Assembly: GCF_047663525.1 (NCBI RefSeq)
Contig: NC_092590.1
Span: 9,630,001-9,694,000, forward strand
Reading direction: 5' to 3'
DNA length: 64,000 nt
DNA from: Anas platyrhynchos
Lineage: Eukaryota > Chordata > Aves > Anseriformes > Anatidae
Shown: positions 27,901 through 64,000 of the stretch, in pieces
Layout: each line of letters begins with the position of its first letter
How positions within the stretch are numbered: the stretch's first letter is position 1
Notes under the pieces: model-generated
Told to the model about the DNA's origin: nothing
Databases searched by the model: none
Seen by the model: the letters and a program-made list of their open reading frames with translations, nothing else
Position numbers and translations under genes: made by a program

Positions 27901-27950
27901 CTCCCGGCTCCCCTCAGCCCCGCCCCCGCCCCCGGCAGCAGCGGCGCGGG

Positions 27951-27982
27951 CCAATAAGAGGCGGCCTCGGGCCCCGTTCGAA
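27951..27982 (+). promoter_or_regulatory. CCAAT box and CHR-like element of the CENPE promoter
   Basis: CCAAT is at 27951-27955 and TTCGAA at 27977-27982, 21 bases apart, within a GC-rich island. NF-Y CCAAT boxes paired with a CHR element (TTTGAA or TTCGAA) are the known signature of DREAM/MuvB-controlled G2/M genes, the class to which CENPE belongs. The motif is visible; the regulation is inferred. It lies before the broken plus-strand copy, so that copy may still be transcribed. Confidence 0.5.
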
Positions 27983-28002
27983 CCCGGCGGCGGCCGGGCC
28001 CG

Positions 28003-28194
28003 GGCTCCTGAGGCGGCTCCTGAGGCGGCTCCTGAGGCGGCTCCTGAGGCGGCTCCTGAGGCGGCTCCTGAGGCGGCTCCTGAGGCGGCTCCTGAGGCGG
28101 CTCCTGAGGCGGCTCCTGAGGCGGCTCCTGAGGCGGCTCCTGAGGCGGCTCCTGAGGCGGCTCCTGAGGCGGCTCCTGAGGCGGCTCCTGAGGC
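28003..28194 (+). repeat. Perfect 12-bp minisatellite, 16 units, in the CENPE 5' UTR
   Basis: The unit GGCTCCTGAGGC repeats 16 times without a single mismatch and stops 9 bases before the CENPE ATG at 28204. Each unit contains the near-palindrome CCTGAGG. Antisense translation gives (PPQE)n, and the sense frame without stops gives (RLLR)n; I consider both non-coding by-products. Confidence 0.97.
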
Positions 28195-28203
28195 GCCGCG
28201 GGG

Positions 28204-31200
28204 ATGGCTGACGAAGGGGCCGTTACCGTCTGCGTGCGGCTGCGGCCGCTCCTCGCCAGGTGAGGGCGAGGGCGAGGGGCTGGGCGGCGTGGGGGTGCGG
28301 GTGCGGGTGGAGCTGGTGAGCTTAGCGGGGGGCTTTGTCTCGTAGGGAGAGCGCTCTGGGGGACGAGGCGGCGCCTCACTGGAGGAGCGAGGGGAACACG
28401 GTCTCAGAAGTGAGCGGTGCCCGAGCCTTCAGCTACGGTGAGTGTGTGGGAAGGAGCAGCTGGGGCTGCCGCGGGCCTGCGGGATGTGCGGCTGCAATGC
28501 GTCCTGGCACTGCTGCCCGTGGCTCGTGTTGTTGTGCCCGGGCTCGAAATGCTTCGGGTGTGGTGTTTGTGTGGCAGTGCTGACCAGGAGTTCTCCTTTG
28601 GGAACCAACGTCCTGCTCTCGGTGCCTGTCCCTGTGCTGGGCTGCACTGCAGAGTGTTTTTGAGCTGGGCTCTGTTGATCTGCAAGCGAGGTGGCAGATG
28701 CCCTCTGGAGAGCTCCCATTTCAGTGACAAGTGGCTGCGCTGAGCCCAGAGCATTGGGATGAGCCCAGAGCATTGGGATGACGTGCACGTGAGATCCTTT
28801 TGCTTTCAGCATCTTCCTGCTGCTCCACCGTACTGCCTCCAGACACGATTTACCACAGCATACAGGTGAACGTGGCCCAAGCTACAGCATTAACAAGTAG
28901 CCTGTCTTGTCAGGCTTACAGTCCTGATACATAGATCAGCCTTAACCGTTTTTAGGGTTCAGTGGGATGACTCCATCTGTCATTCTTAGTTTCTTTGAGG
29001 CTCTGTTGTCTTTGCATCATCACTTTTGGTGTTGGGTTTAATCTTTTGTTCCTGAAGGCTGGCACAGTAGTGACACAACTGTGTTTTATGTTTAAATCAT
29101 CCTGTAAAGACTCTGTCCATGATACAATACTTGAAGTCAGCATTGCTGAATCAGATGACGGCTTGTTTCTGATTTGCAGTGCAATGTTCTTAAATGCTTT
29201 TTTTCTTTTTTTTTTTTTTTAAGATCGTGTCTTTCACTCAAGTGACAACACACAGCAATTATACGAAGGTGTAGCTGTTCCAATTATACAATCAGCCGTG
29301 CAAGGATACAACGGTAGGTTGTACAACTGTGTTTTAATCCTATTTGTAATGCAGTTTGGAAATAGTCGGTAAGACTTAATCATCTTCCTAGGCACAATCT
29401 TTGCTTATGGACAGACCTCCTCAGGGAAGACGTACACCATGATGGGGAACGAAGATTGTGTAGGCGTTATTCCTAAGGCAATCCAACATGTCTTCAAACT
29501 TATTTGTGAGGTGAGTAACTCCATGAAATGGAGGTGACTGAAAGGACTACCAATATTTTTGAATGTTAAAGGAAAACTAATTTTAGCATTAAGGAGTTTG
29601 TGAAGAAAATAAACAGTTTATATTGGAGGATATGTTGCACTCACTTTGCTAAGCTTGCAGAGATGCCATTGGTTTTAAAAAGTACAAAAATGTGAAATAG
29701 TTGGAATCAAATCAGTAACAAAACAATTGCTTTTAAGCTTGCCAATATATTATGCTTGAATTACAAGCTTAGGCAAGGTGATGTGCAGCTTTCTTCTTTG
29801 TTTTTCTATTTTAAAATTGAGCTTCAAAATACTAACAATATTAATGACTTTTTTTTTTAAGCGGGAAGAATATTGAACTTACTTGAGGCTTTCAAAAGAA
29901 TCGTAAGCCAGACTGGTCAATGCTAATAGTTTGAGAGTTGTCTGGGAATCTAGGTATAACATGGGATAAGCCTGCTAGAAAGGATTCACTGGGTCTGCAC
30001 CCAGGACATAGGACACTGGCTGCCTAAGCATAGGACACTGAAGCCCTCCGTGCTGGGGAATGGACTAGCAGATTGATGTGAGCATATCAGGAGCAGTATG
30101 TAAGGCACTGACTTCAGGTGACAAAGCTGCTCCTTATGGCTTTTGGGTAGTTTGAGTCCACTAGAGACAGCTGTCGTTAACCCTGGACTTTGAATGTACA
30201 AGGCTGTCGGTTCTTCTGAGAAGGTGAAGTGGCTGTGCTATGTCTGGTTCTTGTCCGGCTGTCATCTGTATGGACATGCATGAGATCCAGCTGGATTGAT
30301 ATCGCATAGCATATCATCAGATAGCCAAATATGTATTGTGTCCTCACTGTTAAGTTGGGAAGGCTTCTGTGCAACTCATTGCAGCACTCCAGGGGCCCAA
30401 ATCCTGTTATGTGGTATGAAGTAAGGAGAAAGTACAAATTGAAATGTTATTTGCAGAGTATTTCACAGAATCACAGGATTTCTAGGTTGGAAGAGACCTC
30501 AAGATCATCGAGTCCAACCTCTGACCTAACGCTAACAGTCCGCACTAAACCATATCCCTAAGCTCTACATCTAAACGTCTTTTAAAGACTTCCAGGGATG
30601 GTGACTCCACCACTTCCCTGGGCAGCCCATTCCAATGTCTAACAACCCTTTCGGTAAAGAAGTTCTTCCTAACATCCAACCTGATTTGCTTCTGCCTTGA
30701 GTATTTTGGGTTATCAATATTGGTTATGTGAAATGTTCACTGCTCCTCTGAGTTGCAGAATACCTTAGGGTCTACAAAAGTATTTAAAGCCAAGTAATTA
30801 TTTTTTTTTTTTTCTGCAAGTGCCAATATTAATTGCGTGTCTAAATACAACATAAACATTGTAAATGAAATTCACATTCCTCTGGCCCTGACTACCTACT
30901 AAGTGAAGATTATTAATGCTCATTTGTGATGGACTTTGATTCATTTGGGTTATTCTAAAAGACTTGATACTGGGTGCTGATGTGTCACAGTGCATTTTGG
31001 TACTGGCGATTTAACTCTGGACAATCCCTCTGAGCATAACACAACACCTTGACATGTTGAATAAAACAACATTTAGATACATCTTCAAGAAAGAAAATAC
31101 TGTGTAATACCTAGGTCTCCGACTGAAAGAAGGCTGCAATATAAATCGGAGTTTGTTCATTCTGGGCCAAGTTATCAAAAAGCTTTGTGACGACCCTTCT

Positions 31201-31510
31201 GGGTAAGTGCTTGTGTTGACATACCTCTTTTTGGACAAGTCACTGATAAATTAAGAAGTTAAATCTCTTTAGACATCAAATAGTATTCTATATGGCTCTC
31301 CTAAATGTTCTGTCACCTTAAGACAATACTGTTTTTTCATAGAAAAATGACTTTTTAAATCTGTTTTCTTACTTTCCCCTCAGTTTCATAAATTACCGTG
31401 ACAGCAAGCTGACTCGAATTCTACAGAATTCTCTTGGAGGAAATGCTAAGACGGTTATTATTTGTACAATCACTCCTGTGTCTTTTGATGAAACACTCAG
31501 TACTCTTCAG
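28204..31510 (+). pseudogene. CENPE: CENPE 5' partial copy: kinesin motor exons 1-4 plus two later motor exons
   Basis: CENPE is the kinesin-7 kinetochore motor that carries and holds chromosomes at the spindle equator. Exons seen: 28204-28259 (MADEGAVTVCVRLRP), 28346-28437, 29224-29313 (DRVFHS...), 29392-29510 with the P-loop GQTSSGKT, 31115-31202 ([17 protein letters not shown]) and 31384-31510 ([16 protein letters not shown]). Splice sites and reading are good in each, but about 145 residues between the fourth and fifth exons are absent. These hold the family's switch I (SSRSH type) and switch II (DLAGSE type) motifs. Direct splicing of exon 4 (phase 0) to the next exon (phase 1) gives a stop after three codons. 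No exon following TLQ is found before an LTR. The complete coiled-coil part of CENPE is on the other strand. I call this a decayed partial duplicate; a broken single gene or a misassembly remains possible. Confidence 0.75.
30464..30690 (-). mobile_element. CR1 LINE 3' end inside the motor-exon gap
   Basis: The element starts at the left with the inverted CR1 tail (CACAGAATCACAGGATTTCT) and runs through the ORF2 terminus. It lies within the 1.6-kb interval where the missing CENPE motor exons should be. It is very similar in subfamily to the CR1 3' end at 34,605-34,855. The rest of the interval (29,511-31,114) holds no exon I can find. Confidence 0.9.
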
Positions 31511-31847
31511 GTAAACCTTCTTGCCTGTTGTCAAGCATCATTCTGACTCTAGACTTTAATATTGATGTCTTGGGGTGGGGGGAAAAACGTGACGGGCAGG
31601 GGTCTTTAGTCACTGGAACCTTCTAAAGGTCCTCTGCACTTAGGACATGAAATGTGTTTATTTTGTACTCCGTGTGTTCTCTCAGTCACATTGTTGTACT
31701 ACTTTGGCTAGCTAGAGCTTTTTGGCAGTTTGACAACGTTTTAGCCAGCTTCTACAAGAAGAGAGGGTAAATGAACTAGAGATGAACTTTAGGCAGGATT
31801 GTCTTCCTTTTGGTGCTCTCTAGATCTTTATATTGAAAAATAATTAG

Positions 31848-32662
31848 GTGTGGTTTTGCTTAAGCACACTTTTCTGCCTGTTGTGGTTCCGCTCAAGTGT
31901 GCATCCGAGCTCCACCACAAGCACTCTCTCACTCCCCCTCCTCAAAGAGGAACGGGGAGAAAATATGATGAAAAGGGCTCAAAGGTTGAGATAAGGACTA
32001 GAAGATCACACAGGAATTATTTTAACGGGCAAAACAGACTCTGCATAAGGAGACAGTGAGATTTATTGCTTATTACTAACAAGCTAGAGAAGTGAGAAAC
32101 AAAGGAAAGAAACCAAAAGCACCTTTTTCTCCCCCCCCCCCCCCATCCACCCTCTTCCACCTCCTCCCCCCGAGTGGCGCAGGGGAACGGGGGAATGGGG
32201 GTTATGGTCAGTCTACAGCGCTTCTTCTCTGCCGCTCCTTCTTGGTCACTCTCGTCCCCTGTGCTGTGGGGACCCTCCCCCGAGATGCAGTCCTTGATGA
32301 ACTGATCCGGTGTGGGCTTCCCACAGGCAGCAGCTCTTCCAGAACTGCTCCAGATATGGGTCCGTACCACAGGGTCCATCCCTCAGGAGAAAACCGCTCC
32401 AACCTGGCTCCCCTACGGGCAGCAGCTCCTGCCAGATCACCTGCTCCTGCGTGGGCTCCTCTCCACGGGCTACAGGTCCGGCCCAGAATCTGCTCCGGCA
32501 GGGGTCTTCCACAGGCGGCAGCCTCCGTCGGTGCAGGGCCACCTGCTCCACCATGGGCTCCTCCACGGGCTGCAGGGGGACATCCTGCTCCGGTGTCTGG
32601 AGCACCTCTCCCCCTCCTTCTGCACTGACCTTGGCGCCTGCAAGGCTGTTCCTCACTCCTCA
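31848..32662. mobile_element. Avian ERV-type LTR fragment
   Basis: This matches my memory of a common avian LTR. It has a GCTCAAAGGTTGAGATAAGG block, a poly-C tract at 32,131-32,144, and a region of degenerate repeats built from CTGCTCC and CCACGGGCTGCAGG units (about 32,300-32,600). It breaks off abruptly at about 32,662, where CENPE-derived sequence begins, so its right end is lost. No internal retroviral coding sequence is attached. I cannot fix its family beyond an ERV LTR. The frames of 100-200 codons inside it are by-products of GC-rich composition. The 31,511-31,847 stretch before it shows nothing. Confidence 0.6.
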
Positions 32663-33150
32663 ACCAGAGTTGACAAGAGTAGAGCTCTCTGGATGTAATG
32701 CTATTTCTCTTATTTATTCTTTGAGTGATTAGAAAACTGAAATTCATGTCTAAACTTCTCTTGCTGCTAATGTGAATTCTAGAATTACTGGAAATCGTAT
32801 TTGACACAACTAATTTTAGTACTTGACAGTGAAGTGTACAGGCGAGGACAAACCCAGTTCTTGTTTTTCTCCATCACTACGGATTCAACAGTTAACTGAG
32901 ACTCTAGATAGTGTTTCAAGTGAAAAAGACCGGCTATTGGCTGAAAGAACTAGTCATTCTTGTCAGCTTAAAGAACAAATCTCATCCGCTACTGAAGAAA
33001 AAGATGAGCTACAAAAACTTCTTCAGGATACCAGGTCTGAGCGGGACCAGCTCAAGATGGAATTGCAAAAATCCTCTGAGATGGTTGGTGTTGCAAGTTG
33101 CACGCCTAAGTTAGGAATAATTTATCTTCTTGAATGGTACTTAAAAGTAC
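32663..33150 (+). pseudogene. CENPE: Inverted duplicate of one CENPE coiled-coil exon, acceptor destroyed
   Basis: About 488 bp here match, in inverted orientation, 49,612-50,099 of the minus-strand gene. The similarity is roughly 93-95% by eye and covers both flanking intron sequence and the exon (32,883-33,083, starting IQQLTETLDS). In the minus-strand copy the acceptor reads CACTACAG before ATTCAG; here it reads CACTACGG before ATTCAA, so AG is GG at 32881-32882. The frame itself is still open and several amino acids differ (for example D for E in SSEKD, K for S in DQLKM). The copy cannot be spliced normally and is best read as a relic. Confidence 0.85.
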
Positions 33151-33216
33151 CATGTGCACAAGTCGATGGGGCCGGATGGGATCCACCCAAGGGTACTGAG
33201 AGAACTGGCAGAGGAG
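33151..33216 (+). mobile_element. CR1 ORF2 scrap (reverse transcriptase)
   Basis: Translates to KSMGPDGIHPRVLRELAEE, a hallmark of the CR1 reverse transcriptase fingers region. Only about 66 bp remain. It sits exactly between two CENPE-derived pieces that are about 10 kb apart in the minus-strand gene, so it probably marks a deletion joint. Confidence 0.75.
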
Positions 33217-33348
33217 CATACTGAAGAAAAATGGACACAGGAATGAATCACGAACTAAGCTACGGTGAAGCTTCTCAAACTTCTCTGGCCTTCCTGCAAG
33301 AGTCCTCATCTGGGTGGCTTGTATCTTCAGTTCTTTCCAAATCAACAT
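33217..33348 (+). pseudogene. CENPE: Duplicate of CENPE 3' UTR segment
   Basis: From ATACTGAAGAAAAATGGACA onward, 132 bp match the minus-strand sequence 39,871-39,740, which lies in the CENPE 3' UTR after the stop codon at 40,125. A handful of substitutions separate the copies (for example GAACTAAGCTACGG against GAGCTAAGCTACAG). Its order after the coiled-coil exon piece agrees with CENPE gene order. Confidence 0.85.
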
Positions 33349-34855
33349 TTGCCGAGGCGATTGGCTCCAGGGCAGACGCGTTTGCGCAGGCAGGGCGAGC
33401 AGGCAGGGTGCGAGGGAAGGGCAGAGCACTCCCCCCGCCCATACAAACACCTCCTTACCGACAGCCATTAGCTAGGCTGCAATGGTCTCCGCCAGGCACG
33501 GTGCGCTCTCCAGGAAGTCGGTACACACCCAGACCGACTACCTGTTAAAAAATGCAGCAGTTCAGGCCACCGGATGCAAGGAGGGTCTGAGCCTGTTGCT
33601 GCCATTGGCAGGAGGCAGAGAAACTGTGTGCGTGAGGTGTGAGCAGGTGGATGACCTGATCCGCATGGTGGCAGAGCTCAAGGAGGAGGTGGAGAGGTTG
33701 AGGGCTATCAGGGAGTGTGAGCAGGAGATAGACTGGTGGAGCAACTCCTTGCAGGGCCTCAAGGAGAGGTACTAGGGTAAGACACCCCAAATGGGGGTGG
33801 ACCCCCTGCCCTGTCGCTGTCGGGCAGAGGGGGGGGATCTGGGAGTTGAGGAGGAATGGAGACAGGTCCCTGCTCGACATCGCAGGCGATGCCCTCCCCT
33901 TCCGGCCCCACCTTCCCAGGTGCCCTTACGCAACAGGTTTGAGGCCCTGGAGCTCGAGAAACAGGTTTGAGGCCCTGGAGCTCGAGAGACCGGTGGGTGA
34001 GGAAGAGGTAGCAAGTGTTCCTCGGAGGATGCCTAGGGCAAGGAGGTCGACTCCACGCCTCAGGACTGCCTCCATCAAGAAAGACAGAAGGGTTATTGTT
34101 TTGGGAGACTCTATCCTTAGGGGAACAGAGGGCCCTATTTGTCGGCCTGACCCTACCCGTAGGGAAGTCTGCTGCCTCCCTGGGGCCAGGGTTAGGGACG
34201 TTGCCAGGAAGCTTCCCAACCTGGTACGCCCCTCTGATTATTATCCTCTTTTGATAGTCCAGGTGGGCAGTGACGACATTGAAGACAGAAGCCTGAAGGC
34301 TATCAAACAAGACTTTAGGGGGCTAGGACGGTTAGTGGATGGAGCAGGAGTACAGGTGGTGTTTTCATCCATCCCTACAGTGACAGGGAAGGGTACAGAG
34401 AGGACACGGAAAGCCCACCTGTTAAACACATGGCTCAGGGGCTGGTGCCAACGCAGAAATCTTGGGTTTTTCGACCATAGGGCACTTTACTCGGCACCCG
34501 GCCTGATAGCCGCAGATGGGTCCCTATCTTTTAGGGGAAAAAGGATCCTGGGCCAGGAGCTGGCAGGGCTCATTGAGAGGGCTTTAATCCCCCCAGGATG
34601 AGGGGGAATGGGCTAAAGTTGTGCCAGGGGAGTTTTAGGCTGGATGTTAGGAAGAACTTCTTTACTGAAAGGGTTGTGAGGCATTGGAACAGGCTGCCCA
34701 GGAAGGTGGTGGAGTCACCATCCCTGGAAGTCTTTAAAAGACGTTTAGATGTAGAGCTTAGGGATATGTTTTAGTGGGGACTGTTAGCGTTAGGTTAGAG
34801 GTTGGACTCGATGATCTTGAGGTCTCTTCCAACCTAGAAATTCTGTGATTCTGAC
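33349..34855 (+). mobile_element. CR1 LINE with 5' UTR, ORF1 and 3' end but no ORF2
   Basis: Begins with a GC-rich CR1 5' UTR, then ORF1 (33,482-34,601). It then jumps at about 34,602 to the last codons of ORF2 ([21 protein letters not shown] pattern) and the 3' UTR, ending in the CR1 tail ATTCTGTGATTCTG. Almost all of the reverse transcriptase/endonuclease ORF is deleted, so the copy cannot move by itself. Most avian CR1 copies keep only the 3' end, so one keeping its 5' part is uncommon. Confidence 0.85.
33482..34601 (+). pseudogene. CR1 ORF1 protein with coiled coil and SGNH-type esterase domain, broken
   Basis: The N-terminal frame (33,482-33,775) has a CVRCEQVDDL cysteine pair and a Glu-rich coiled coil (about residues 55-97). 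It stops at TAG 33,773-33,775, after which the same frame remains CR1-like for about 60 codons. A 28-bp tandem duplication (33,933-33,960 and 33,961-33,988) then shifts the frame. The C-terminal frame (to 34,601) shows the esterase start RRVIVLGDSILRG, with the GDS catalytic serine block, plus the later block VQVGSDDI. Bird and turtle CR1 ORF1 proteins are known to carry such an esterase domain. The stop and the frameshift make this copy non-functional as a whole. Confidence 0.8.
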
Positions 34856-34877
34856 AGAAATGGACAGCAAAAGACTT

Positions 34878-34922
34878 GTAGCAAGCCATGGGATTTTTGC
34901 TGTTTCAAAAAATCCCTCAACA
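34878..34922 (-). mobile_element. Truncated 3' LTR and polypurine tract of the ERV
   Basis: The first ~45 bases of the LTR (minus strand TGTTGAGGGATTTTTTG...) match the start of the full LTR ending at 37,431. They are preceded in the minus direction by the A8G7 polypurine tract at 34,926-34,940. The rest of this LTR is missing toward 34,860. Confidence 0.8.
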
Positions 34923-35085
34923 ATTCCCCCCCTTTTTTTTCTCTTCTTCTTCTTTGAGCAAACCAAGCCTGATGTAACAGTTTTGCTAGTAACCCTATAA
35001 CCACTTTTATCACAATACAACACATAGTGATGATTGACACTACCACAAACAGAATCCTTAATCCCTCTTTGACTAATCCCAGTAA

Positions 35086-35838
35086 CTATCTATGCATCGT
35101 TTCAAACAAATCAGTGAACCATTGATTGAAAGGATTGATACCATATTGAATCTTTCTCATGTGCTGTTTCAGGAAAGTAATGGATTTGTGAATTGACTCA
35201 TTATGATCAAAAAGGTTTAAACAGCACATTCGCTTGGAGTCCTCCCCCCCATGGCTTTGAGCCAAAAGCAAGATGTCAATTTTACAATCCTGTAAAAGCA
35301 CATGTTGCAGACTATTTTGATCTGGTAACATCTCCTCGAGTATCTCTGTCGGGGCATGGGCTTGCTTCTCAGCCCAGCGTACCAATTTTTCTAAGTTCTT
35401 AATTGCGGCCACAGATGCCACTTCTGGCACTAAAATTGCCAATGCCACTCTAGCTGTAACACCAAGCAATTCAACATTATCATTGCAATCCGGTGCAAGC
35501 AACGCCCATTTGTGTCTGGTGACCTCACACAACTGTAACAAGCTAGGAGCAAATATAGTAGGTTTATCTAAGTAACACGGACATCTGATAGCATTTGCAG
35601 GGATACCTTGCCAGGCCCTATCCCCGCAAAGCAGAAAAACATCAGGAGGTAAGGCCAAAGCTGTACAATTGTTACAAACACTGTAGTTGTTACCCCTTCC
35701 CTCTGTGCCATAAGCCCCTAAACCCTGCCTAGCAGTGTCATTGTAATCACAGGTGTTATTTGTATTTCTGTACCCGTATGGCCCTTTCCAGGTTCCTGTA
35801 GCAGGGTCTCGGTAATTCATTCTTATTCGTGGTAACAC
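35086..35838 (-). pseudogene. env: Retroviral envelope fragment (end of surface unit and part of transmembrane unit)
   Basis: An open frame of 250 codons with a Cys-rich surface-unit end, a hydrophobic stretch (ARVALAILVPEVASVAA, about residues 129-145) that fits a fusion-peptide area, a heptad region, and then the region of the CX6CC motif. Only the CC pair (MCC) is kept; glycine stands where the first cysteine would be expected. The frame stops after the membrane-proximal region and shows no membrane anchor. The N-terminal part of the surface unit is also missing. I regard it as a non-functional remnant. Confidence 0.7.
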
Positions 35839-35892
35839 ATTTGGTGCTGCTCTATTTATTCTTTGAAAATGAATACTTGCAGGAGGGTCTTC

Positions 35893-36156
35893 TCAGTCCC
35901 TAGTCAAACATAAGTGATTCAAGACACCCAATGCCTCAGACAATCGTTCATCGATGTTCCTGATCTCTTTTAGTCTCACTAATTGTTCCTTTAAAACCTG
36001 ATGTGATTGTTCAACCATCACTTGGCCTGTGGGAGAAAATGGAACACTCATTTTAGGCTGAATCTGTAGGAAAATCCATTCCAGAACTCGAAAATGCTGC
36101 CCTATCATTCCACCCTTGCTATCACCTGTGTCACTTACACTACTCCTATTACCCAT
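35893..36156 (-). pseudogene. pol: Retroviral integrase fragment (pol)
   Basis: An 87-codon frame containing FSPTGQVMVEQSHQVLKEQL. This resembles the integrase catalytic-core segment that includes the final acidic residue (E in VEQ). Neither the zinc-binding N-terminus nor the rest of pol is present. It ends just upstream (in minus direction) of the envelope frame, which is the normal pol-env order. Confidence 0.65.
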
Positions 36157-36231
36157 GCTGTTGATGTCAGTGGCATCCTCCTGGTACCGTTTCTGTCTTT
36201 GTCGCCCCTTACTCTCCCCCTTTTCTTTTTG

Positions 36232-36792
36232 TCACTGACCATTCACCACAAATGGATGAGACACATGATTGCTAGTTAGGAAAGAGAGTGTAACATCTGC
36301 TATAGGGCTGCAGGCAGTGCCGGCTGCAACCTTAGAAGCTGTTTGTGACAGAGCCTGCTGGTGGGCATTTGGCAGTGTAATCCATGGCTCTGCACTCCTG
36401 CCCCACAATAAAGGCAGTAATAGAACTAAGTCACCATTAGTAATCCGTAGAATGTGGCAACCCCATGGAACATAGTTATAACAGGATAATCCAGGAACAT
36501 AGTTATAACACCGATCTGGGGACAAATAGTCTTTTTTGCATTGCAAGATATGCCTCTCGTAAACAGAATGCCAGAGAGAAGCAGCACAGCTGCTGCTGTC
36601 TCCATGGTCATGCCAGACAGGCTGCAGGGTCCTGATCTCTGCCCCTCTATGTGCCCATTCGCCACACGGTGAGGGTCGGCTGCCGGTGTCCACTGACGCC
36701 TCTGGTTTCCCGTAGCAACTCGATCCCGGCTGTCCCGCATCCCCCCACCATTCCTTTGTTTCCCTGCATTTTCCCCCCTCCCCCCCCCCCAC
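36232..36792 (-). pseudogene. Retroviral leader/envelope-start-like frames with signal peptide
   Basis: Two overlapping minus-strand frames (36,232-36,792 and 36,426-36,740). The second contains a hydrophobic signal-like run (METAAAVLLLSGILF) followed by Cys-containing sequence, as at an envelope N-terminus. It lies upstream of the integrase scrap, which is out of the normal order. A 27-bp period tandem duplication (36,467-36,483 and 36,494-36,510) repeats CYNYVPG-type residues. Identity beyond retroviral origin is uncertain. Confidence 0.4.
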
Positions 36793-37053
36793 GTCTCACC
36801 GCAAGTCCTGTGTCCGGGTCAGTGCTTGGAGTTTCTCAACGTCTCTCAGGTGTTCCAGCTTCTGCCAGGGCTCTCCGTGTCTCTCAGAGCCGTCCGTGTC
36901 TGTCAAGCATCTCTCAGGGCTCTCTGTGCCTCTGAAGTCTCTCCATGTGTCTCAGGTCTCTCAGCGTCTGTTGGGTCTCTCAGCTTCTCTCAGGGCTCTC
37001 CGTGTGTCTGAAGCCTCTCTGTTTCTGTCAGATCTCTCAGCATGTCCGGGTCA

Positions 37054-37071
37054 CAGCCTGTTCGGGCCCCA
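37054..37071 (-). promoter_or_regulatory. Retroviral primer-binding site, lysine-tRNA-like
   Basis: Two bases after the LTR end the minus strand reads TGGGGCCCGAACAGG. It matches the tRNA-Lys type site (TGGCGCCCGAACAGG) at 14 of 15 positions. The last three bases do not match. Assignment of the primer is inference. Confidence 0.5.
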
Positions 37072-37073
37072 TA

Positions 37074-37431
37074 TGTTGCAGGAAGCACAGCCGAAAGCAC
37101 AACAGACACCAGTATGGTCAGATCATGCTCCATTTTATTACCCGAATAGCCTGACTTTTCTAGTGAACTTAACAGGGGCGGATAGTGTCTCACACAAGAT
37201 TATTGGTCAAAAAGCACTCAGACAAACAACCACAAGAAAACAACCCCACCTGCAAGAAAACAACCCCCTTGTGATTAGCAGTCACGTAGACCTTGCCCTT
37301 GAAGCCAGCTACTGGCAACAATATTTTTCTGAATTCCTCAATTGGGCAGTGTGGGAACACTGTCATGGGGACTTGGTTTGCTCAGCTGCAGCAAGCCATG
37401 GGATCTTTGCTGTTTCAAAAATCCCTCAACA
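37074..37431 (-). mobile_element. Full-length 5' LTR of the ERV
   Basis: 358 bp bounded by TGTTG and CAACA (minus strand TGTTGAGG...CTGCAACA). It is nearly identical by eye to the solo LTR at 61,205-61,560. A TTTTATTACC segment near 37,133 gives an antisense AATAAA, a likely LTR polyadenylation signal. Confidence 0.9.
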
Positions 37432-39597
37432 CTTCCTTGGACCACCACATAATTTTGGAAGCTTTTTTTTAACCTAACAATCATTTTTAATGAATATTTG
37501 ACACACTAATTCTATGAAGTTTTTAAAAATACATGTTAGTATAGTCACTCACCAAAAGATCTCAACCAGCTTGTTCGGTTTACTGACCTTTGGAAAAAGG
37601 AAGTTTTATGCTCATTTGCTTTGGTATGCTTGCTGGGATTGTAGTCTAACTGGTAAATTTCTCTACACCAACGCAGTTTCATGTTGAAAAACCAAGATGC
37701 TGCCATCTAGCGAAACTCAAGATTTTAAGTGGGATTTTCTCCTGCACAGGTTAGGAACAAAAGAGGATCATGAACATTAGCTATCCGTTCCCCCACAAAG
37801 AATGCAAGAAATTAACAGGATTCTCACCAAAAAAGGCCACAACAATGTTCTTCCCCAAGCAATTGCTCTTTATCAATCATCAAGTTTTAAGCTAGGACAA
37901 TACTTGAAAAATAATTTCTTAATTGTAGATTTACCAAAGTAGCCATTCTTAAATTTATATCAGTGTTTAACTTAGATCTGTTAAGGCAGTTAACATCATG
38001 AGACTCAAAAATTCTATGACAAAATTGAATTATAAGCTCACACCAGATCCAAGGCCACTCTAATAGTTTTCTTAATGAATTCAGAAAGCTGCCTGAACTC
38101 CAGCTGGGCACATTTCTGTGGGTAAACCTGGACACGCACACAGGCACGTTCGGTCACATTATGCCACTCTTGAACTGAATTCAGACACAAGCAGGAATAC
38201 ACTGCAACAGCTCTTATCAGCTCAACCACCAGAAAAATCTCTAAGTCTAGAAATGTTCTAGCAAGCAATTAATAAATATCCTGAAACTGTGAAAAAAAAA
38301 AAAAAAAAAAAAAAAGGTAGATACCTTGCTTTTCTCTTCTGGAAGGAAAAAGTCAGCTTAAAATGTATTCTTTTAATAAAATACCAGAATGAAAGAAGTG
38401 AAAAAAGTGTGGTAGCCAAAGGAAATATCGTTCAATAATAATGGGAAATTGCAAAGAAAAAATGGGACAACTTGCATTTATCACTGCCAGGAAAATGAAT
38501 TATTCCTACATATCTATGGCTGTGACAGGAAAGGAAACAGTGCAGTGCTGAGTTCAGCAACAGTATTTAGAACTTGTGTATTTTTAGCTAGAAATTGTTA
38601 TAAGATTTCCATGACAAAGTTTTGGAAATATGAATGTTCACAACTTCTTAGTAGTTGCAGTAGTTGGCAGTTTTTGGCTATTCAAGGTGAATAGATGGTT
38701 GGGTCTTCAGTACGGATTGCAGAAGTACCCCTGTCAGGCAAACAACCCTTGTGTTACTCTTCCAATCCCACTAACTGCAGTGCATCCAGCAAAATGATGC
38801 AAAATCATTTGCCTATTAGTCTGGCTATCTCAAAATGAAGTACTTAGGAAGAGATCTGGTAACGTTCAGAGCTTCATTCCTATAAAATAAAGACAAGACT
38901 TTTGATACAAAAGTCTTTGTTCAGTATGACACTGACAGTTCATGATGATTTCATTCTTAAAGGAGTTCATCTCAGGTGTTGAGTGCCAAATTTCTTCTAG
39001 CTTGGAGGAAGGGAAGGATCAGTCTTCTATCTAGACTTCAAACATTTCCTGATAGAGCAAAGATTCAGTTAGAAAGAATTAAACAAACACTGATGACACA
39101 GATTTGTGCAACAGTAATTCGCTGCACAAACTGACTGCAGAAAGCTGTAAGACAGACAAGCAGCATAATAATGATGAAAGGGGTAAGATTGCTATCAAAG
39201 ACTGGTTTTAGACTGAATATTATAATCAGCATCCCCAAATCATACCGTCATGTCTCCACAAAACCGAAGAGGCCAGCAGAAATATTTTGAGATACTTAAA
39301 ATTTATTGTCAAAATAAACCTTATACAGGACGTAAAAGTAAGTTTCAAAATTCAGGTAAGCAGGATAGCAAAACAGTCTGCCATACAGCCGTAATTACAA
39401 TTTATTTTTCACTCACTAGAGTAACTGCAGCATCAATTAGATCCATTGGTTACTGCTTGGAAAAAAATATTCAGATGTCACACTCCAAACAGGAAAGAGA
39501 AGTATGCTCAAAGATGATGCAAAATGCAAAGTTACTCCTGGCACCATAATTGACAGAGCTGCAGACATATTGCATAGCGTTTAAGAGAAGTCCTTGA
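37432..39597. other. Spacer between ERV and the CENPE 3' end
   Basis: About 2.2 kb of AT-rich DNA with a 25-base poly-A at 38,292-38,316. No coding exon, no recognisable CR1 or LTR. It may include distal CENPE 3' flank. Confidence 0.45.
38292..38316. repeat. Poly-A run (25 bp)
   Basis: Uninterrupted run of 25 A, without a recognisable element body beside it. Confidence 0.85.
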
Positions 39598-39603
39598 TTT
39601 ATT
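39598..39603 (-). terminator. CENPE: Likely polyadenylation signal of minus-strand CENPE
   Basis: The minus strand shows AATAAA about 520 nt after the stop codon at 40,125. The segment duplicated at 33,217-33,348 lies between stop and signal, which supports this region as transcribed 3' UTR. A further AATAAA-like site lies near 39,400. Confidence 0.5.
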
Positions 39604-40124
39604 TTGTGCCTTAAAAAGGGAAAGTGCGCAATGCAGAGGTTAAAGTTGTAGTAAAAATGCAGTTTCCATGGTCTCAAAAAAAGAGACAGTATAAGACTTC
39701 TATATTGAGAAACAAAAAGTAACTAGTGAGAACAGAGAGATGTTGATTTGGAAAGAACTGAAGATACAAGCCACCCAGACGAGGACTCTTGCAGGAATGC
39801 CAGAGAAGTTCGAGAAGCTTCACTGTAGCTTAGCTCGTGATTCATTCCTGTGTCCATTTTTCTTCAGTATGTTAGCTCTTCTTTTTTTGCTGTCCTGAAG
39901 ATAACCAAAGAAGAACATCAGCAGCAGGTTGCAGGCAACGTGACTGCTTTTTAAGTTTTGTTCTTGTACTGCAGCTTTGCCAGCTGGGGGAAGCAGCAGC
40001 AGCTCCAGGAACTGCAGCTGCCAGAGCTCTTCCCACAGCTGATGATTTAACCCGAAGAAACTGTCTTCCATAGAGGCGGATTCTGGATGTTACCACTGCA
40101 AAGGCAGCTTACAACAGAATACCT

Positions 40125-49100: not shown

Positions 49101-52100
49101 AACCAATTTAATGGAAATCAATTTACTTTTGGGGGTGGGATGCACCGAAGAGAGAACTTGAGGGATTTTGAAAAACAAAACAGGGAAGCAGCTCCAAATA
49201 AAAATAGGTGATATAGGTGACTGGACAGTAAATCAAGCGAGATGTCTCAATTGAGAAGTTCACTTTAACTTTCCCAGGACAGGCTGCACTGTCACCGAAG
49301 AGCAACCACAAACCAACCAATCCCGTGGTGTGTAGTATCTTAGCAAGAGATGCAATCCCATTAGCACATGATGCGTAGAAGCAAAGTTTATGCTCTGGAA
49401 CAAGTGGTACTAAGTTTTAACGTGTACCCTTACATAAACAGGGTCGTTTACCTTAATTCGCATGGTTTTTGCCTTCAGGCTGTCATCATCCATCTGTTCT
49501 GCGTTATCCAGTGCATCCACTTGAACAGACACGTCGCTCAGGCTTCTCTCCTTCAGTTTACTTAGAGCACATTCCAGTTCAGCACTCGTTTCAATATACT
49601 AAAATAAATACATGCATATTTAAGTACCATTCAAGAAGATAAATTATTCCTATCTTAGGTATGCAATTTGCAACACCAACCATCTCAGAGGTTTTTTGCA
49701 ATTCCATGCTGAGCTGGTCCCGCTCAGACCTGATGTCCTGAAGAAGGTTTTGTAGCTCATCTTTTTCTTCAGTAGTGGATGACATTTGTTCTTTAAGCTG
49801 ACAAGAATGACTAGTTCTCTCAGCCAATAGCCGTTCTTTTTCACTTGAAACACTATCTAGTGTCTCAGTTAACTGCTGAATCTGTAGTGATGGAGAAAAA
49901 CAAGAACTGGGTTTGTCCTCACCTGTACACTTCACTGTCAAGTACTAAAATTAGTTGTGTCAAATACGATTTCCAGTAATTCTAGAATTCACATTAGCAG
50001 CAAGAGAAGTTTAAACATGAATTTCAGTTTTCTAATCACTCAAAAAATAAATAAGAGAAATAGCATTACATCCAGAGAGCTCTACTCTAGTCAACTCTGG
50101 TTTCCACTAAAGCAAGAGGAAAACATGTAACCTAAATGCATTTTGACTGTTTCAGGAAAATCGAAAATCTAGCAAGAGACAAAGACAATTCCACAGTCCA
50201 TCTATCTGTTCTAATCATTTGATCAACAACACATACGCTAGCTTGAAGCAATCCTTCGTTATACTGTTTGATCTACAAAGGAAGAGTTTGGCAGGTGAAA
50301 AGCAAAGAAATGAAAACCGCAGAAAGATCGAGCTGGGAAGAGCCAAGCGGCAGCATTTGCTGAATAAAAGCCAGTTTGAAAGCGTGCAAAGCACCAAGGA
50401 TTCGAAACCCACTGAAGTTCAAACAGCCTATGTGGTGCCTTTTAAAGTCTCAACCAACACATACAGAGTCACCATCATATCAAACCTGGACAAGTTGGAC
50501 AAATCTGTGTCCATTCCAGTGGAGCAGCCAACCCAGCTGGCTATGAGGTTGACATGAGTCCAGGATGGCACTTCTAAATATCGCTAAATAAACATTTACA
50601 AATCCTCTCTCGTGTTCATGCTTATGTCACACAACAGTGATAGGCTGACAATTTAAAATTCAATTGGGCTTGTCTTGAGCAAAAACTTAGCTCATCAGGG
50701 ATGAAACATCAGAAAACATAATTGTGGAGTAGCTAGCTAAAAACCAAAGCTCCTAAGCTCCTCACCTTACTTGTTAGGCTGTCCTGTACAATCTCTGACC
50801 TCCTCTGAACCTTCAACAAACGTTCCTCCCTTTCTTCAGCTTTGATCTTCTCATTGCTGAGGAGTTCTTGCTGCCGCTTCAATTCGTTTTCTGTTTCAAC
50901 AAGCTGCAGTAAAAACAGAAAGAGATTTAACATATCAAAACTCAGATATTAGCTGAGTCTACTTCTAACACAACAGACCATTCAATATTTCATACGAGTC
51001 AAAATACTTTACAGAAACACTTATGTTGCTTTAGTTTAAAAAGTTGCATATTTTGTCTTTGAACGTTTCTCCTAAATAAAACCTACCAACTTAGAATACT
51101 GACGATTTATCAGTATTCTGTGTCAGGTATACAAAGTATGCTACAAACACGCTTTGACTTATTTTCTGCAATCCCTGTTTCAGAGACGAGGAACACAAAG
51201 CAGAGATGTAACATGAGTGGGGTTCACGTTGAGAACCATCTAGAAAATAAATTCTAGACCTAACGTGGAACAACTTTCGGTCAGACAGTTGCCAAAAATG
51301 CTTTTAAATTACCTTTGATTATTTTCTTTCACTAGACTTCCAAATTTCAAATGAAGTTTAAGCTTTACAGCGAGGCAACAGATACACTAAAACAGATGAA
51401 TTGGAAAATAGTGGTAGCACGCGTAAGAAGATTCTCTGCCTACCACAGATTTGAATCAACTACAGATCACCGAGGTGACTTCCCTGTCTGAACAAAGACT
51501 GCTGCTCGATGGACACCACCCAACCACTTCAATTGTCGTCTTCATCGTTACAAAGTCAGAGTGGCTGAGGGCAGAAGGGAACTCTAGAGATCATCTAGTC
51601 CAGCTCCCCTGCTCAGGCAGGGTTGCCTACAGCGTGTTGCAGAGACCCTCATCCAGGCAGGTGTTGGATGTCTCCACAGGACACTCCGCAGCCAGCCTGG
51701 GCAACCTGTTCCAGGGCTCTGTTATGAAGCTACTCTTTATCCAGAAGCAAAACAGAGATACACAGAGAACTGGTCTGTTTCAGCGTCAGCTCTGGAACTC
51801 CAAAACGCACCACCAAATTCACAGAAATGCCCATTAAGCATTTGGGTAGTTGCATCCATGTTTTCTGGTTCTTCATTCCTTCCTAAATAACGAAGTTTCA
51901 GATTTTTTGAAAGAATACATCTTCACACAGATCCTTAATGCAATTCCCCAAGACAGAAATCAAAGCACACCGGTATCTGCAATTTGTACATATAACACTA
52001 ATACTGGCAAGACAGCTGTTTTGAAAAACAGCTTCGAGATTCAGCCAGCCTTCTCTCCTAAACATTTATCGTTGTTCTACTTTAATCAAAAGATAAAGCA

Positions 52101-58100: not shown

Positions 58101-61100
58101 TTCTGGTAGCTCATTTACTTGTTTTTGTAGGAGTGCATTCTCTTCCAACGCTTTTTCTAGCTCCGCTTTTATATCAGATGCCTTTTTTTCCAGCTCCACA
58201 ACAGAAAGCAAATCTAGAAAAGTGAACAATTTTAGGTTAGAAAGTGTGAGGGTAGAAAATCAAGTTTTAAATTAAGCAGAAGAGGTGTAATGCACTCTGA
58301 ACGTCATAGACATTAAAGTCTAGAAAACATTAGAGCCAAAATCTTCCCTGCCACCCACCTCAGTGGGGAAAGGGAGAAGGGGCAAGGGATGGGAAGAGAG
58401 CACCAACTCCAGCTGAACAGTACCTTTTGGAACTTTACCCTCCATCAGTGAAGTTAACCTTGTGTTTTCTTGAAATACAGACTGCAATTCTTTCTGCAAG
58501 TCAGCTTCCATCTTTTTGTAGCTGGCTTTTCCTGCTTCTATTTGACTTTGATAGAGTTGCACATCCTTTTGCATTTGCTTGTAATTACTTAAGAGTTCAT
58601 TCTTCAGGAAGACAAAATAACATGCAGTTCACACACAAAATCCAAGCCTACTTGCTTAACAGTTGAACATTGCATCCCATCGCATTTCCTGTTGTTGCCC
58701 TCAACAACTTTGATCATGATCAATACAACACAAGTCGTGGTTAAAGAGCTTAATTCCTGTTAGAGCGCTAACCAAAATGTACCTTACATTAGAGGTTGAA
58801 CCATAACCGCTTTCCCCATTTCATTTTTACTCCACCAAAGCTCAAAGCACGGTCCACCCCTCTTTCCTGCATTCATCTTACTGTTTTATTCCCTGGGAAA
58901 AATCAGACTTGGAGTCTTCTGTCCCAGGAACTCCCCAAACACTACTGCTTTATTCTCTCCATACTGATAGACTGCACGCTTACTCCTGCACAACAAGCCT
59001 CTAGTATCTTTTCATCTTTCTCCTAAGACCTGTTTTCCACGAGTTCCAGAGTGAAAACATCACTTGGAGCACGAGTCACTAGCCAAATCTTGTATTTACT
59101 GACTGTAAGACAACAGTACCTCAACCGTATTTGGTACGGCAACAAAAGTGGTTTAACAAATACTTGCCATTTTCTCCTTCAGCTCCAGATTCTCAGTTCT
59201 GAGAAAAGACGACTCTTTTTTGGCATCCAAGGCTATAGCTTCACTATCTAAGAGGGATTTGGTCAACTGTTGAACTTCCTCAAGTAGTTTACCGAAATCT
59301 CTCTGAAAGAGACGAAAAATAATAAAAAAAGCTAAAACAGGCCATAACAGAGCAAACTTGATCATTATAATACAGTTAAAGTACAGAAGAGACTTCGCAA
59401 ACATGGTTCATTATCTGAGCTCTGTCCTACTGTTCCTTTTAGATGAAGTGCAACCTTTCCCATAGCTTTACTTCACCAGAGCATTGCCGTATAAAATAAG
59501 CTTCTTGCAGGAGAACTGTTGATGTAGTCAATCAGTGTTTTAAGCTCCAAAAAATAGCTAATTCGCTTGACAGCAGATTTCAACCAAACTAAAGCTATAA
59601 TTATATTTAACCCATACCCAACAAAGTAACATCCAACATAGCCTCGCAACCCCAGAAGAAAACTCACATTTACAGCTGAAACACATGCGTCCTTTTTTTC
59701 CAATCCTGCTTTCTGCAATTCTTCCACACGGTTCTGTAACGTCTTTATTTTGTTCTCTTTCTCTTTCAGCTGTTCCAATTTGGAGCTTATTTCTGCCTAA
59801 AAGTTACAGGAGAAAAGGGAAAAAAACACAAGGGAAAACCTAGCTCCATTTTTTTTTTTCAGGTAGAAATCTAACAGAAAATTTAGTAACGCTTATTATG
59901 TAAGATTGAGTTTATAAATATCCCCTTTATAGCTGGTAAGACTAACCAGAGCCCTGTAAGTCTATACTCTTATCTACTATGGACAGTCTAATCAACATAA
60001 GCCAACGTTCCATAGAAGTCTTACTGCATGCAAGCTTGAGACAGACTCACCTCAAGTTCTACATTGTGCGCTTCCACATTTGAAACTACATTCTTTAGGC
60101 TGGTAACTTCATGCATTAGTTCTGTCTGTGGAGCAAATTGAAGCAAAATTGCAGAGGAGGTTAGAAAGCGACCACAACCAATGGTATTAGCTGCCATCGC
60201 CACGAAAATAAGCAAGGTCTACCTTATGTTTTCTTTTCTGTTAGTTAGCAAACCATATACATGAATATGTATTTAAACAGGTACAAAGCAAGCTGCTACA
60301 CCCTTTCAAATTGATAGATAAGATGCAAAGCTCCATTTCCACTTCCCAGCAAATTGAAAGATTTCAAGTCCAACTTAATTTTACACAGCTCAAGAAGTGA
60401 AAGCAATGTGATCAAAGCCATTTCATGCACAAATCTGTAAGGTATGAAACTTCAGATTGGTCACGTTAAGCAGCTTTTTACAACACAGCGCAGCTATCTA
60501 ATGCAATCTATTCAGTGACAAGAACTAGGAAGTGTCAGAGCTGAGGTGAAGCAAGCAAGCCATAAACACGTTCAAGCTGCATCCTCTGAAAGGAGGCACA
60601 AGTAGAAGACTACAGAGAAAAGCTACAAGCATCAGGAGGAGGAAACCTAACCTGTAATTTTCAGGTCAGAGGAGAGCTGTAGAAATAGTATCAAACCACC
60701 TGTTAAAAGTCACTTCCTGTCATTATTCACAGTAGAGTTTACCCCTGTGTGTCTGCTGGCTGAAATTGATGATTTCAGCCAAATCTGCTCAGCAAAGTAG
60801 GTGACCTGTCACTTATGCTGTAATTACTTTGCTACACAGGTGTCCAATGCTTCCATTTTAGGGAGTATCTTCAGATATGGATCTGAAGGTAGGATTTATT
60901 CAAAAAGCAGTTCTTGCAACTTAAGGTACTTTAGACTACTTGTCAGTAGACACACAGGTTTCTCAGGGACAATTCTAACACGATTTGTTCAATGTTGGCT
61001 TCAGAATATACCTATACATTTTTGTGGGGAACACAAATAATAGGTGAGGCTGTTAAATTGTAACCTGAAACAGGGCGAAAGGATGCAACTTCAGTTCAAC

Positions 61101-64000
61101 CTTAGCATCATGGTAAGAGGATATGAAACAGCCTAGGGCGTACAACCAGTCTGCAGCCAACACAGCAAAGAATCAGCTCCTTCTGGAAAACGTATGAGGT
61201 AAGATGTTGCAGGAAGAACGGCCAAAGACATGACAGACACCAGTAGGGTCAGATCATGCTCCATTTTATTACCCGAATAGCCTGACTTTTCTAGTGAACT
61301 TAAACGGGAGGATAGTGTCTCACTCAAGATTATTGGTCAAAAGCACTCAGACAAACAACTACAAGAAAACAACCCCACCTGCAAGAAAACAACCCCCTTG
61401 TGATTAGCAGTCACGTAGACCTTGTCCCTGAAGCCAGCTACTGGCAACAATATTTTTCTGAATTCCTCAATTGGGCAGTGTGGGAACACTGTCATGGGGA
61501 CTTGGTTTGCTCAGCTGCGGCAAGCCGTGGGATCTTTGCTGTTTCAAAAATCCCTCAACAGTAAGAAATGGAATAAAGTACACCCGTGTCTCAATACCTC
61601 AAATGTCTCTTTTCCTTCTGTAACTTATTTGACAGACTAGCCCTTGGGCAACTAGAACGTAATGCCTAAATAGAAGTACGTATTACTTGTAACAGAATTA
61701 GAGCATAGAAAGAAAACAGACATTTGGACAAAAAAAGATATGGCCACAAAAAGCACGAGGAGGCGAAAGGAACTGGAAGTCTGCATGTCCTGTATCATAT
61801 TATCCACTAGGCAGAATGTTCTGACTTTGTGGCACAAAACAGCTTTTATTTTTTCCTTTTACAGACATCACCATTCGCGTTATGACCGAGTTAAACAATG
61901 TTTCAAGATAATGCTGACATCGCTCTGATCTTTGTAACTCACTGAACTGTCCTATACAAGAAACGAGTATGCTTATTAAGCCACACTTCACTAACTTCAA
62001 AATACTCTATAGCCTATTTAGTAATAGCGCGTTTATTACACATTGGAAAGGGAGAACCTCTTGCAGAAATCTAGACCATTCATGTATTACACATACATGC
62101 GCACAAAAAATATAGTGTGGATACACACAAATATATACATGTGTTTAACTAGACTTCCTCTAGTTAAAATTCAAAAATGAAATACGAATTTAAATAACAT
62201 TCACAGTTTAAATATGAGTTTTACACTAAGTGCATTTCAAATCCTGGATTCTTTCATTCTGCTGTTGAGCGCAACTTAGCACCACCTGTGATAAACATCC
62301 AAGTAGATGTATACTGACTTAACTCTTCAAAAAAAATTGAGTATAGAGAATTCTTATCTATCTGTATTTCAGTGCACCTTACCTCATGCTCTTTTTGTGT
62401 TTTCTTTTCCAGCATTTCAAATTCTTCTGTTTCTCTCTTTTCCTTCAGTTTCGCCTTCATTTCATTTACTTCTAATTTCAGCTGTTCATTTTCTAACACG
62501 ACTTTATTCAAGTTAGCTTTTAGGACATTGACTTCACTGACAGCAAGGTCCTAAAAAAAGGACAACAAACTTTAGGAGAGGTTATTGGGATTTCGGTCTT
62601 ATTTTTAAGACACTAATGGACAGGCTTACCTTTTCTAGCGTTGAAACTTCACAGCGTTGTATAGATTCTTCAAAGTCTTTCAGAGTCTAGAAAGAGAATC
62701 ACTTCTAGTTAGCTGATGTACAAGCCGAAGCAAGTTTATTATATTCCTTGTTGCTTGTCTTTTCACTGCTAGTCCTGTTTAAATACCAAAGCTCACTAGC
62801 CCATTCTCCACAAAAACATCCCACAACTTCAAACAGATGACAGACTTGCTTTCTAACTAGTTAGTTGCAAAAAAGATTGTCGATGCCCTAAAGAAGGGTA
62901 AGGCTGACCTTACTGAGAAGCATGGAACGTGTATACACCATGCAAGGCCAACTGAAGAGATTATGAAGTTACCCAGTTCATGTCAGGTCCAGGAGTCCAC
63001 TCTGTATCCGAAATTTGATCGGGAAGAGTTAAACGTTGGTTGTCATTTTCAGAACTCTCAGAAAATGTAGCTGAAAAGGAAGATGTACTCTCACTCTATT
63101 TCTAATGCATTTTAAACTAGACATCAAGAGTTCTGTCAAAGATTTCACCACACCAGAAATAATCATTCAATAGCAATGATGTAGCACAGTGAGTAACGTT
63201 TCTGAATCTATAAATTTAGATTTATAAGCAAGGGATTATTCCTCATTTTCAGGTCTTCATTTCAAAGCTGCCTTGCAGAATTTTATTGTTCTCCTTCCGC
63301 CCCACAAAGATACTTACAACACTTTCCACCCCACAAAGATACTTACAACCCTCTCCACCTGGTAGTAAAGACAGGGACGCTTTCATTTTTTTTGTTTCAG
63401 TCAATTCCGTTTTTTCAAAGTCTTCAAAATAATTCACATTCTTCTGGGTTATTTTACCAGGAGCCCATGTAACTCTTCTTCTTCTCTTGGCCTTAAAAAA
63501 AATATATATTTATTTTACGATTTTATTTATAGAAAATGGTGATCTAAGCACTACGTAGAGAGTAGATGTAGCAGTAACTTATGCAACAACAGTCCTGCAG
63601 GCTATCCTACAGTACCTTCTGCTTTGCAGTTTCTTCAAAACTGAACTACAGCACGATTATTTGTAAGCAAAAGTCTTGTTCAAAATTGAATGAATGCTTA
63701 CTCACAAGTTATTTAAGAGGTTATTCCTTAAAAGTGTGAAAATTGAGCACAAACACTTACAGTTGGTCTGGGCATATTGAAAGTGAAGTCTCAGGACTGC
63801 ATAACTCAAACTTATTCTTCATTTTCACAATGACTCTATATAAGATCTGTAACTCTAAACAAGATCTGTAACAGCTGCTCTTACTTTAATATCCTGTTTT
63901 GCTGAAAACGAGGCAGAAGTCACCAGCATCTCAGTTAAGTTTCGTATCCTATCCTCCTGCGCTTTCTGAAGAGAAAGTTTTTCTTCCAGCAACTGGGCCA
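40125..64000 (-). CDS. CENPE: Centromere-associated protein E (kinesin-7), all of the stalk and tail; motor beyond right edge
   Basis: Kinetochore-bound kinesin that aligns chromosomes in mitosis. Thirty exons, 5,000 coding nt (~1,666 codons), N to C: 63885-64000, 63347-63491, 62973-63070, 62630-62686, 62383-62550, 60051-60125, 59668-59796, 59168-59302, 58424-58601, 58047-58213, 57072-57386, 55897-56208, 55533-55691, 54621-54683, 53536-53757, 52528-52686, 52102-52329, 50766-50903, 49681-49881, 49452-49598, 47587-47799, 46227-46436, 45549-45758, 44099-44320, 43280-43483, 42606-42718, 42216-42313, 41563-41722, 40811-41070, 40125-40222. Phases agree throughout. The first exon (AQLLEEKLSLQKAQ) matches sequence just after the motor and neck. 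KRRRRVTWAPGK, KDLLSVVELE, the long heptad coiled coil, PLTCGGGSGIVQ and the final APDCTTQ before TGA match CENPE in order. The middle coiled coil is several hundred residues shorter than in mammals. Odd points: two GC donors, one exon without a GT donor, one duplicated donor. Introns hold CR1 scraps, a solo LTR and a plus-strand ORF. Confidence 0.93.
44480..44553 (+). mobile_element. CR1 scrap
   Basis: Seventy-odd bases of the CR1 ORF2/3' UTR junction type (CTGGAGTACCTCTCCTATGA and GAAGAGAAGGCTG), sense to plus. It lies in the CENPE intron between exons 44099-44320 and 45549-45758. The flanks show no more of the element. Confidence 0.65.
45060..45105. repeat. A-rich CAAA/CAAAA simple repeat
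   Basis: Irregular AAAAAC and CAAA units in a CENPE intron. A CA-rich patch follows at 45,260-45,292. Confidence 0.7.
50156..50557 (+). CDS. Unrecognised nested terminal-exon-like ORF inside a CENPE intron
   Basis: Antisense to CENPE, in its intron between exons 49681-49881 and 50766-50903. After a splice-acceptor-like TTTTGACTGTTTCAG the frame is open from 50,156 for 133 residues to TGA 50,555-50,557. AATAAA follows at 50,586-50,591. The product is hydrophilic and basic in its middle (KRQRQF, ENRRKIELGRAKRQ) and ends with a possible beta-rich domain (TNTYRVTIISNLDKLDKSVSIPV). It has no ATG near the start, so it would be the last exon of a longer transcript or a relic of a retrocopy. I do not recognise the family and saw no upstream exon on this strand nearby. 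It could be chance, but the composition, acceptor and polyadenylation signal together argue against it. Confidence 0.35.
   Translation, partial: ENRKSSKRQRQFHSPSICSNHLINNTYASLKQSFVILFDLQRKSLAGEKQRNENRRKIELGRAKRQHLLNKSQFESVQSTKDSKPTEVQTAYVVPFKVSTNTYRVTIISNLDKLDKSVSIPVEQPTQLAMRLT
51556..51735 (-). mobile_element. CR1 fragment
   Basis: On the plus strand it reads as inverted CR1 3' UTR (AGAGATCATCTAGTCCAGCT, ATCCAGGCAGGTGTTGGATG, CAGCCTGGGCAACCTGTTCC). It lies in a CENPE intron, in the same direction as the gene, and is 5'-truncated. Confidence 0.85.
61205..61560 (-). mobile_element. Solo LTR of the same ERV family, with 6-bp target duplication
   Basis: 356 bp from TGTTGC to CAACA, nearly identical to the 5' LTR at 37,074-37,431 and in the same orientation. 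It is flanked on both sides by GTAAGA, a perfect 6-bp target-site duplication, and no internal sequence remains. It lies in the CENPE intron between exons 60051-60125 and 62383-62550, sense to the gene. It brings in its own AATAAA on the CENPE-sense strand (plus-strand TTTTATTACC near 61,264). Confidence 0.93.
63302..63358 (-). repeat. CENPE: 29-bp tandem duplication that doubles a CENPE splice donor
   Basis: CCACAAAGATACTTACAAC occurs at 63,302 and again at 63,331 (period 29). Each copy carries the donor TT|GTAAGTATC on the minus strand, at 63,341-63,346 (proximal, used in my model) and at 63,312-63,317 (distal). Use of the distal donor would add 29 nt and shift the CENPE frame. Confidence 0.85.

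Follow-up and report, generated by a model that had tools for sequence, protein, structure and literature searches.

CENPE sequence lies on both strands of the 64,000-nucleotide stretch of duck DNA that was analyzed here as a whole (the window), and this arrangement looks like an ordinary gene-duplication relic, not a gene split in two. The explanation that we consider likely is a tail-to-tail inverted duplication of CENPE in which the plus-strand copy has decayed and the minus-strand copy is working, with its motor beyond position 64,000. An earlier reading, made from the letters without database searches (the sequence-only reading), had described CENPE as present in two opposite halves; the two-strand layout is real, but on the plus strand there are pieces from the full length of the gene and not one half of it.

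A human CENPE protein sequence, whose motor part agrees at every position with PDB chain 1t5c across residues 2-342, was aligned to the whole window. Its plus-strand matches covered residues 1-117 and 249-321. The motor exons on this strand, and the gap between them, are as follows:

28,204-28,259, plus strand: plus-copy CENPE exon 1, with the ATG start (protein alignment)
28,346-28,437, plus strand: plus-copy CENPE exon 2 (protein alignment)
29,224-29,313, plus strand: plus-copy CENPE exon 3 (protein alignment)
29,392-29,510, plus strand: plus-copy CENPE exon 4, with the P-loop GQTSSGKT, ending in phase 0
29,511-31,114, plus strand: gap expected to hold the exons for human residues ~118-248, none of which was found
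31,115-31,202, plus strand: later motor exon, which requires a phase-1 upstream exon (not found)
31,384-31,510, plus strand: later motor exon, ending STLQ

All six motor exons carry AG and GT borders where applicable, and introns are retained between them. Exons 1-4 encode 119 residues, and the top PDB matches of this translation are CENP-E motors (E 9.7e-46 and 4.4e-45). The motor exons that the sequence-only reading had assigned to 28,204-31,510 of the plus strand were therefore correctly located and match solved CENP-E motors best, but the motor is incomplete. For human residues 118-248 of the query, the 95 rows obtained at E up to 100 contained no convincing match in the window; the best of them (E 0.072) lies on the minus strand in the retroviral envelope stretch described below, and the sole plus-strand row inside 29,400-31,200 has an E of 18. 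In addition, seven strict motor motifs were searched in six frames over the whole window, and only the P-loop (29,409) and YRDSKLT (31,394) were found, both on the plus strand. SSRSH, EIYNE, and DLAGSE were absent from all six frames of the window, and no strict motif for switch I or switch II was found in it. As exon 4 ends in phase 0 and the surviving exon after it requires phase 1, joining the two gives V-S-D-stop.

Two repeats were observed around these exons. A perfect 12-bp tandem repeat, GGCTCCTGAGGC, occupies 28,003-28,195 (16.1 copies, 100% match), and its array stops 8 bases 5' of the plus-copy ATG. Inside the gap, a 217-bp segment (30,466-30,682) recurs inverted at 34,637-34,853.

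Further along the plus strand are second copies of two segments of the minus-strand gene, given here with their partners:

32,662-33,145, plus strand: second copy of a stalk exon (32,883-33,083) with flanking intron, its acceptor AG changed to GG
49,619-50,102, minus strand: minus-gene partner of 32,662-33,145, with the acceptor AG intact
33,217-33,348, plus strand: second copy of sequence 254-385 nt beyond the minus-gene stop
39,740-39,871, minus strand: minus-gene partner of 33,217-33,348, ahead of the first AATAAA/ATTAAA past the stop (39,603)

Read inverted, 32,662-33,145 and 50,102-49,619 are identical at 463/484 positions (95.7%, E 0.0; 283 of the bases are intronic), and 33,217-33,348 and 39,871-39,740 are identical at 127/132 (96.2%, E 4e-56); with E values of this size, the two repeat pairs are not chance matches. 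This confirms the duplicated middle exon and post-stop sequence that the sequence-only reading had reported on the plus strand. Both pairs combined show 26 differences in 616 aligned bases, about 4% divergence. The neutral rate is near 2e-9 per site per year, and with divergences of 3.4% (non-exon, 14/415) to 4.2% (26/616) the duplication may be roughly estimated at 8-10 million years old. When 27,000-35,200 was compared with 38,000-64,000 by sensitive inverted blastn at E up to 1, five rows were obtained; beyond the two known pairs there was no significant inverted match between these regions, and the three other rows (E 0.09-0.66) were discarded as chance. The window contains no partner copy for any of the six plus motor exons, which weighs against our explanation; they presumably share their age and origin with the stalk copy.

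The acceptor of the stalk exon reads CAG on the minus strand and CGG on the plus strand. Within the exon pair, 12/201 bases differ, eight of them in changed amino acids and four silent, with no stop, compared with 9/283 in its introns and 5/132 in the post-stop piece, so the exon is not conserved above its surroundings. With middle motor exons that were not found, a frame stop, and a lost acceptor, the plus copy looks dead. Both marks by which a duplicated pseudogene is recognized, identity with the parent that extends into the introns (seen for the stalk and post-stop pieces) and disabling changes, were found on this copy. A processed (retro) pseudogene was excluded, as the six plus exons keep their introns and GT-AG borders and the stalk copy includes intron.

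What survives on the plus strand forms four blocks (exons 1-4, the two late motor exons, the stalk exon, and the post-stop piece) in gene order on one strand, and the plus and minus copies are oriented tail to tail. The stalk and post-stop patches are separated by 71 bp of foreign sequence (33,146-33,216). Patches this short, with foreign sequence at their joins, are what could be expected if a single episode of template switching had copied short CENPE patches in series with other fragments, with no later decay of a full copy. Random patching, however, would seldom leave all four blocks on the same strand and in the order of the gene, and we regard such an origin as improbable.

In the inverted duplication that we prefer, CENPE would have been duplicated at the DNA level with its introns, inverted and tail to tail, and the plus copy would then have been shortened by several deletions that removed most of its length. 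The first deletion would have removed what lay between exon 4 and a late motor exon, the second what lay between the last motor exon and a single stalk exon, and the third what lay between this stalk exon and the region beyond the stop, with other sequence now occupying the deletion joins. Decay was thus presumably by stepwise deletion, and the plus copy would today be a dead relic facing a working minus-strand gene whose motor lies to the right of 64,000.

The minus-strand gene was modelled as a single feature:

40,125-63,998, minus strand: 27-exon model of the CENPE stalk and tail with approximate borders, 1,558 codons plus stop

This gene covers the protein from human residue ~377, where it meets the edge of the window, as far as the C terminus, and its 5' side leaves the window, so that no motor of the minus copy lies within it. 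Thirty leftward exons from 64,000 to 40,125 had been proposed; the minus strand does carry the stalk and tail between 63,998 and the stop at 40,125, but 27 exons were modelled. The script-built model has no phase breaks at its 26 junctions and 1,558 open codons, an openness that is partly built in because the script takes open frames and penalizes phase breaks. Several of its splice sites are weak, and it needs two GC donors (exons 6 and 13), observed as GCAAGT in place of GT at 59,168 and 52,528; with GC donors disallowed, an earlier exon model contained one phase break. A candidate stalk exon at 54,697-54,621 fits no phase and was omitted from the model, and it was part of the codon set used for simulation.

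In a neutral simulation of 1,562 codons, with 1,000 runs per divergence level, 2.7% of runs stayed stop-free at 1.7% change and 1.9% at 2.1%; at 1% change 12.9% of runs were also stop-free, which counts against our explanation. Taking indels into account as well, assumed to occur at 0.1 per substitution, lowered the joint figures to about 1e-3, 9e-6, and 1e-6 at 1%, 1.7%, and 2.1%, respectively. From its phase-consistent open model the minus copy appears alive, and as judged from the sequence it is most likely the working CENPE gene. CENP-E is required for vertebrate mitosis, and this requirement, together with the open minus frame, suggests that the motor exons of the working gene lie to the right of 64,000.

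The order of motor on the plus strand, stop, and stalk on the minus strand is also the order predicted by a simple inversion that cut one CENPE between motor and stalk and left no intact copy here, in which case the exon after the plus motor would be found just past 64,000. The sequence-only reading had placed the minus-strand edge close to where the plus-strand motor should continue; the plus matches end at residue ~321 and the minus gene enters at ~377, and for human residues 322-375 there were only weak coiled-coil matches in the window (best E 0.023). A simple inversion requires that no segment be present twice, yet two repeat pairs exist, and it leaves these second copies and the unfound motor exons unexplained. 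The same reading had argued that neither an inversion nor a scaffold flip predicts second copies, and this argument holds for both. A severed stalk would moreover be expected to decay, yet 1,558 codons are readable here, and the need for CENP-E in vertebrate mitosis speaks further against a cut, which we consider very unlikely. The reading that had been favored from the sequence alone, a partial duplication in inverted orientation whose plus copy has decayed, fits best: the second copies are real, the plus copy is disabled, and the minus copy is open.

The surroundings bear on whether the contig was assembled correctly. Pfam identified a radial spoke head gene (PF04712) in three ordered open frames at 20,094-26,705 of the plus strand (best E 1.6e-81), and it ends about 1.5 kb 5' of the plus CENPE ATG. 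Human CENPE sits between BDH2 and TACR3. A BDH2 query (the human 3' neighbor) gave no convincing match in the window, the best having an E of 0.82 and falling inside the CENPE stalk. That a radial spoke head gene and not BDH2 adjoins the duplicate, unlike the human order, counts against our explanation and would suit a chimeric contig, in which a decayed CENPE copy beside the radial spoke head gene and the true CENPE had been mis-joined within 33.3-39.7 kb. Such a join is conceivable because that interval between the copies contains repeats: a frame resembling CR1, a stretch matching avian gp85 envelope, and an LTR-like repeat found again at 61 kb. The envelope stretch belongs to an endogenous retrovirus remnant at 34,877-37,436 of the minus strand (PF03708, E 3.9e-12). 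The recurring repeat, 359 bp long (37,073-37,431), has its second copy (95%) at 61,204-61,560, within the minus CENPE gene, and a 51-bp piece at its edge is repeated at 34,877-34,927. On the other side, the window contains no N, and the plus end at 33,348 and its partner at 39,740 face each other only 6.4 kb apart, as a local inverted duplication leaves them. A chimera is therefore unlikely in our view, and the contig is presumably correctly joined.

Other observations were made in the same part of the window. The CR1-like open frame (33,732-34,601, 289 amino acids) has a weak GDSL lipase match (E 4.6e-4) that is below Pfam's cut-off, and a GC-rich stretch at 31,845-32,660, which lies after the last plus motor exon and before the stalk copy, presumably resembles a bird retrovirus-related repeat. 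Ten frames from the list of 255 open frames in the left part gave no Pfam family at E up to 0.01, Rfam at gathering score gave no hits, and ARAGORN found no tRNAs. A scan of viral contigs with a motor patch returned patterns in 22 stretches, among which no relative was confirmed.

Among known systems, the plus copy is most like a duplicated (unprocessed) pseudogene, with introns kept, frame and splice site broken, and most exons lost; it differs in its inverted, tail-to-tail position next to the parent gene and in being cut down to a few ordered patches. As in CENPE (kinesin-7), stalk and tail are encoded on the minus strand as far as the stop and the plus patches match solved CENP-E motors best, whereas switch I and II were not found in the plus copy and the motor of the minus copy is not inside the window. 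Excerpts of three reviews (PMC8437031, PMC6211034, PMC9846793) place CENPE sequences on the B chromosomes of the rodent Apodemus flavicollis and the fishes Metriaclima lombardoi and Astatotilapia latifasciata. The B-chromosome sequences resemble the plus copy in lying outside the parent gene, but they are on accessory chromosomes and the duck copy is beside its parent. Judged by title and abstract opening, none of the papers found in the literature searches deals with a CENPE duplicate in birds.

Finally, the relic might be transcribed from its kept 5' end and tune CENPE dosage, either through RNA that would pair with the CENPE message, as the relic carries inverted copies of the stalk exon and the post-stop sequence, or through a 122-residue P-loop fragment; we give this idea very little credence. 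The understanding of CENP-E is otherwise unchanged by these results. For annotation there is a risk that automatic gene building may join other exons to the motor exons of the plus copy, and that CENPE may be reported as split or missing in this species. As a relic that faces its parent gene, the plus copy is also a small illustration of the way in which inverted duplicates shrink.
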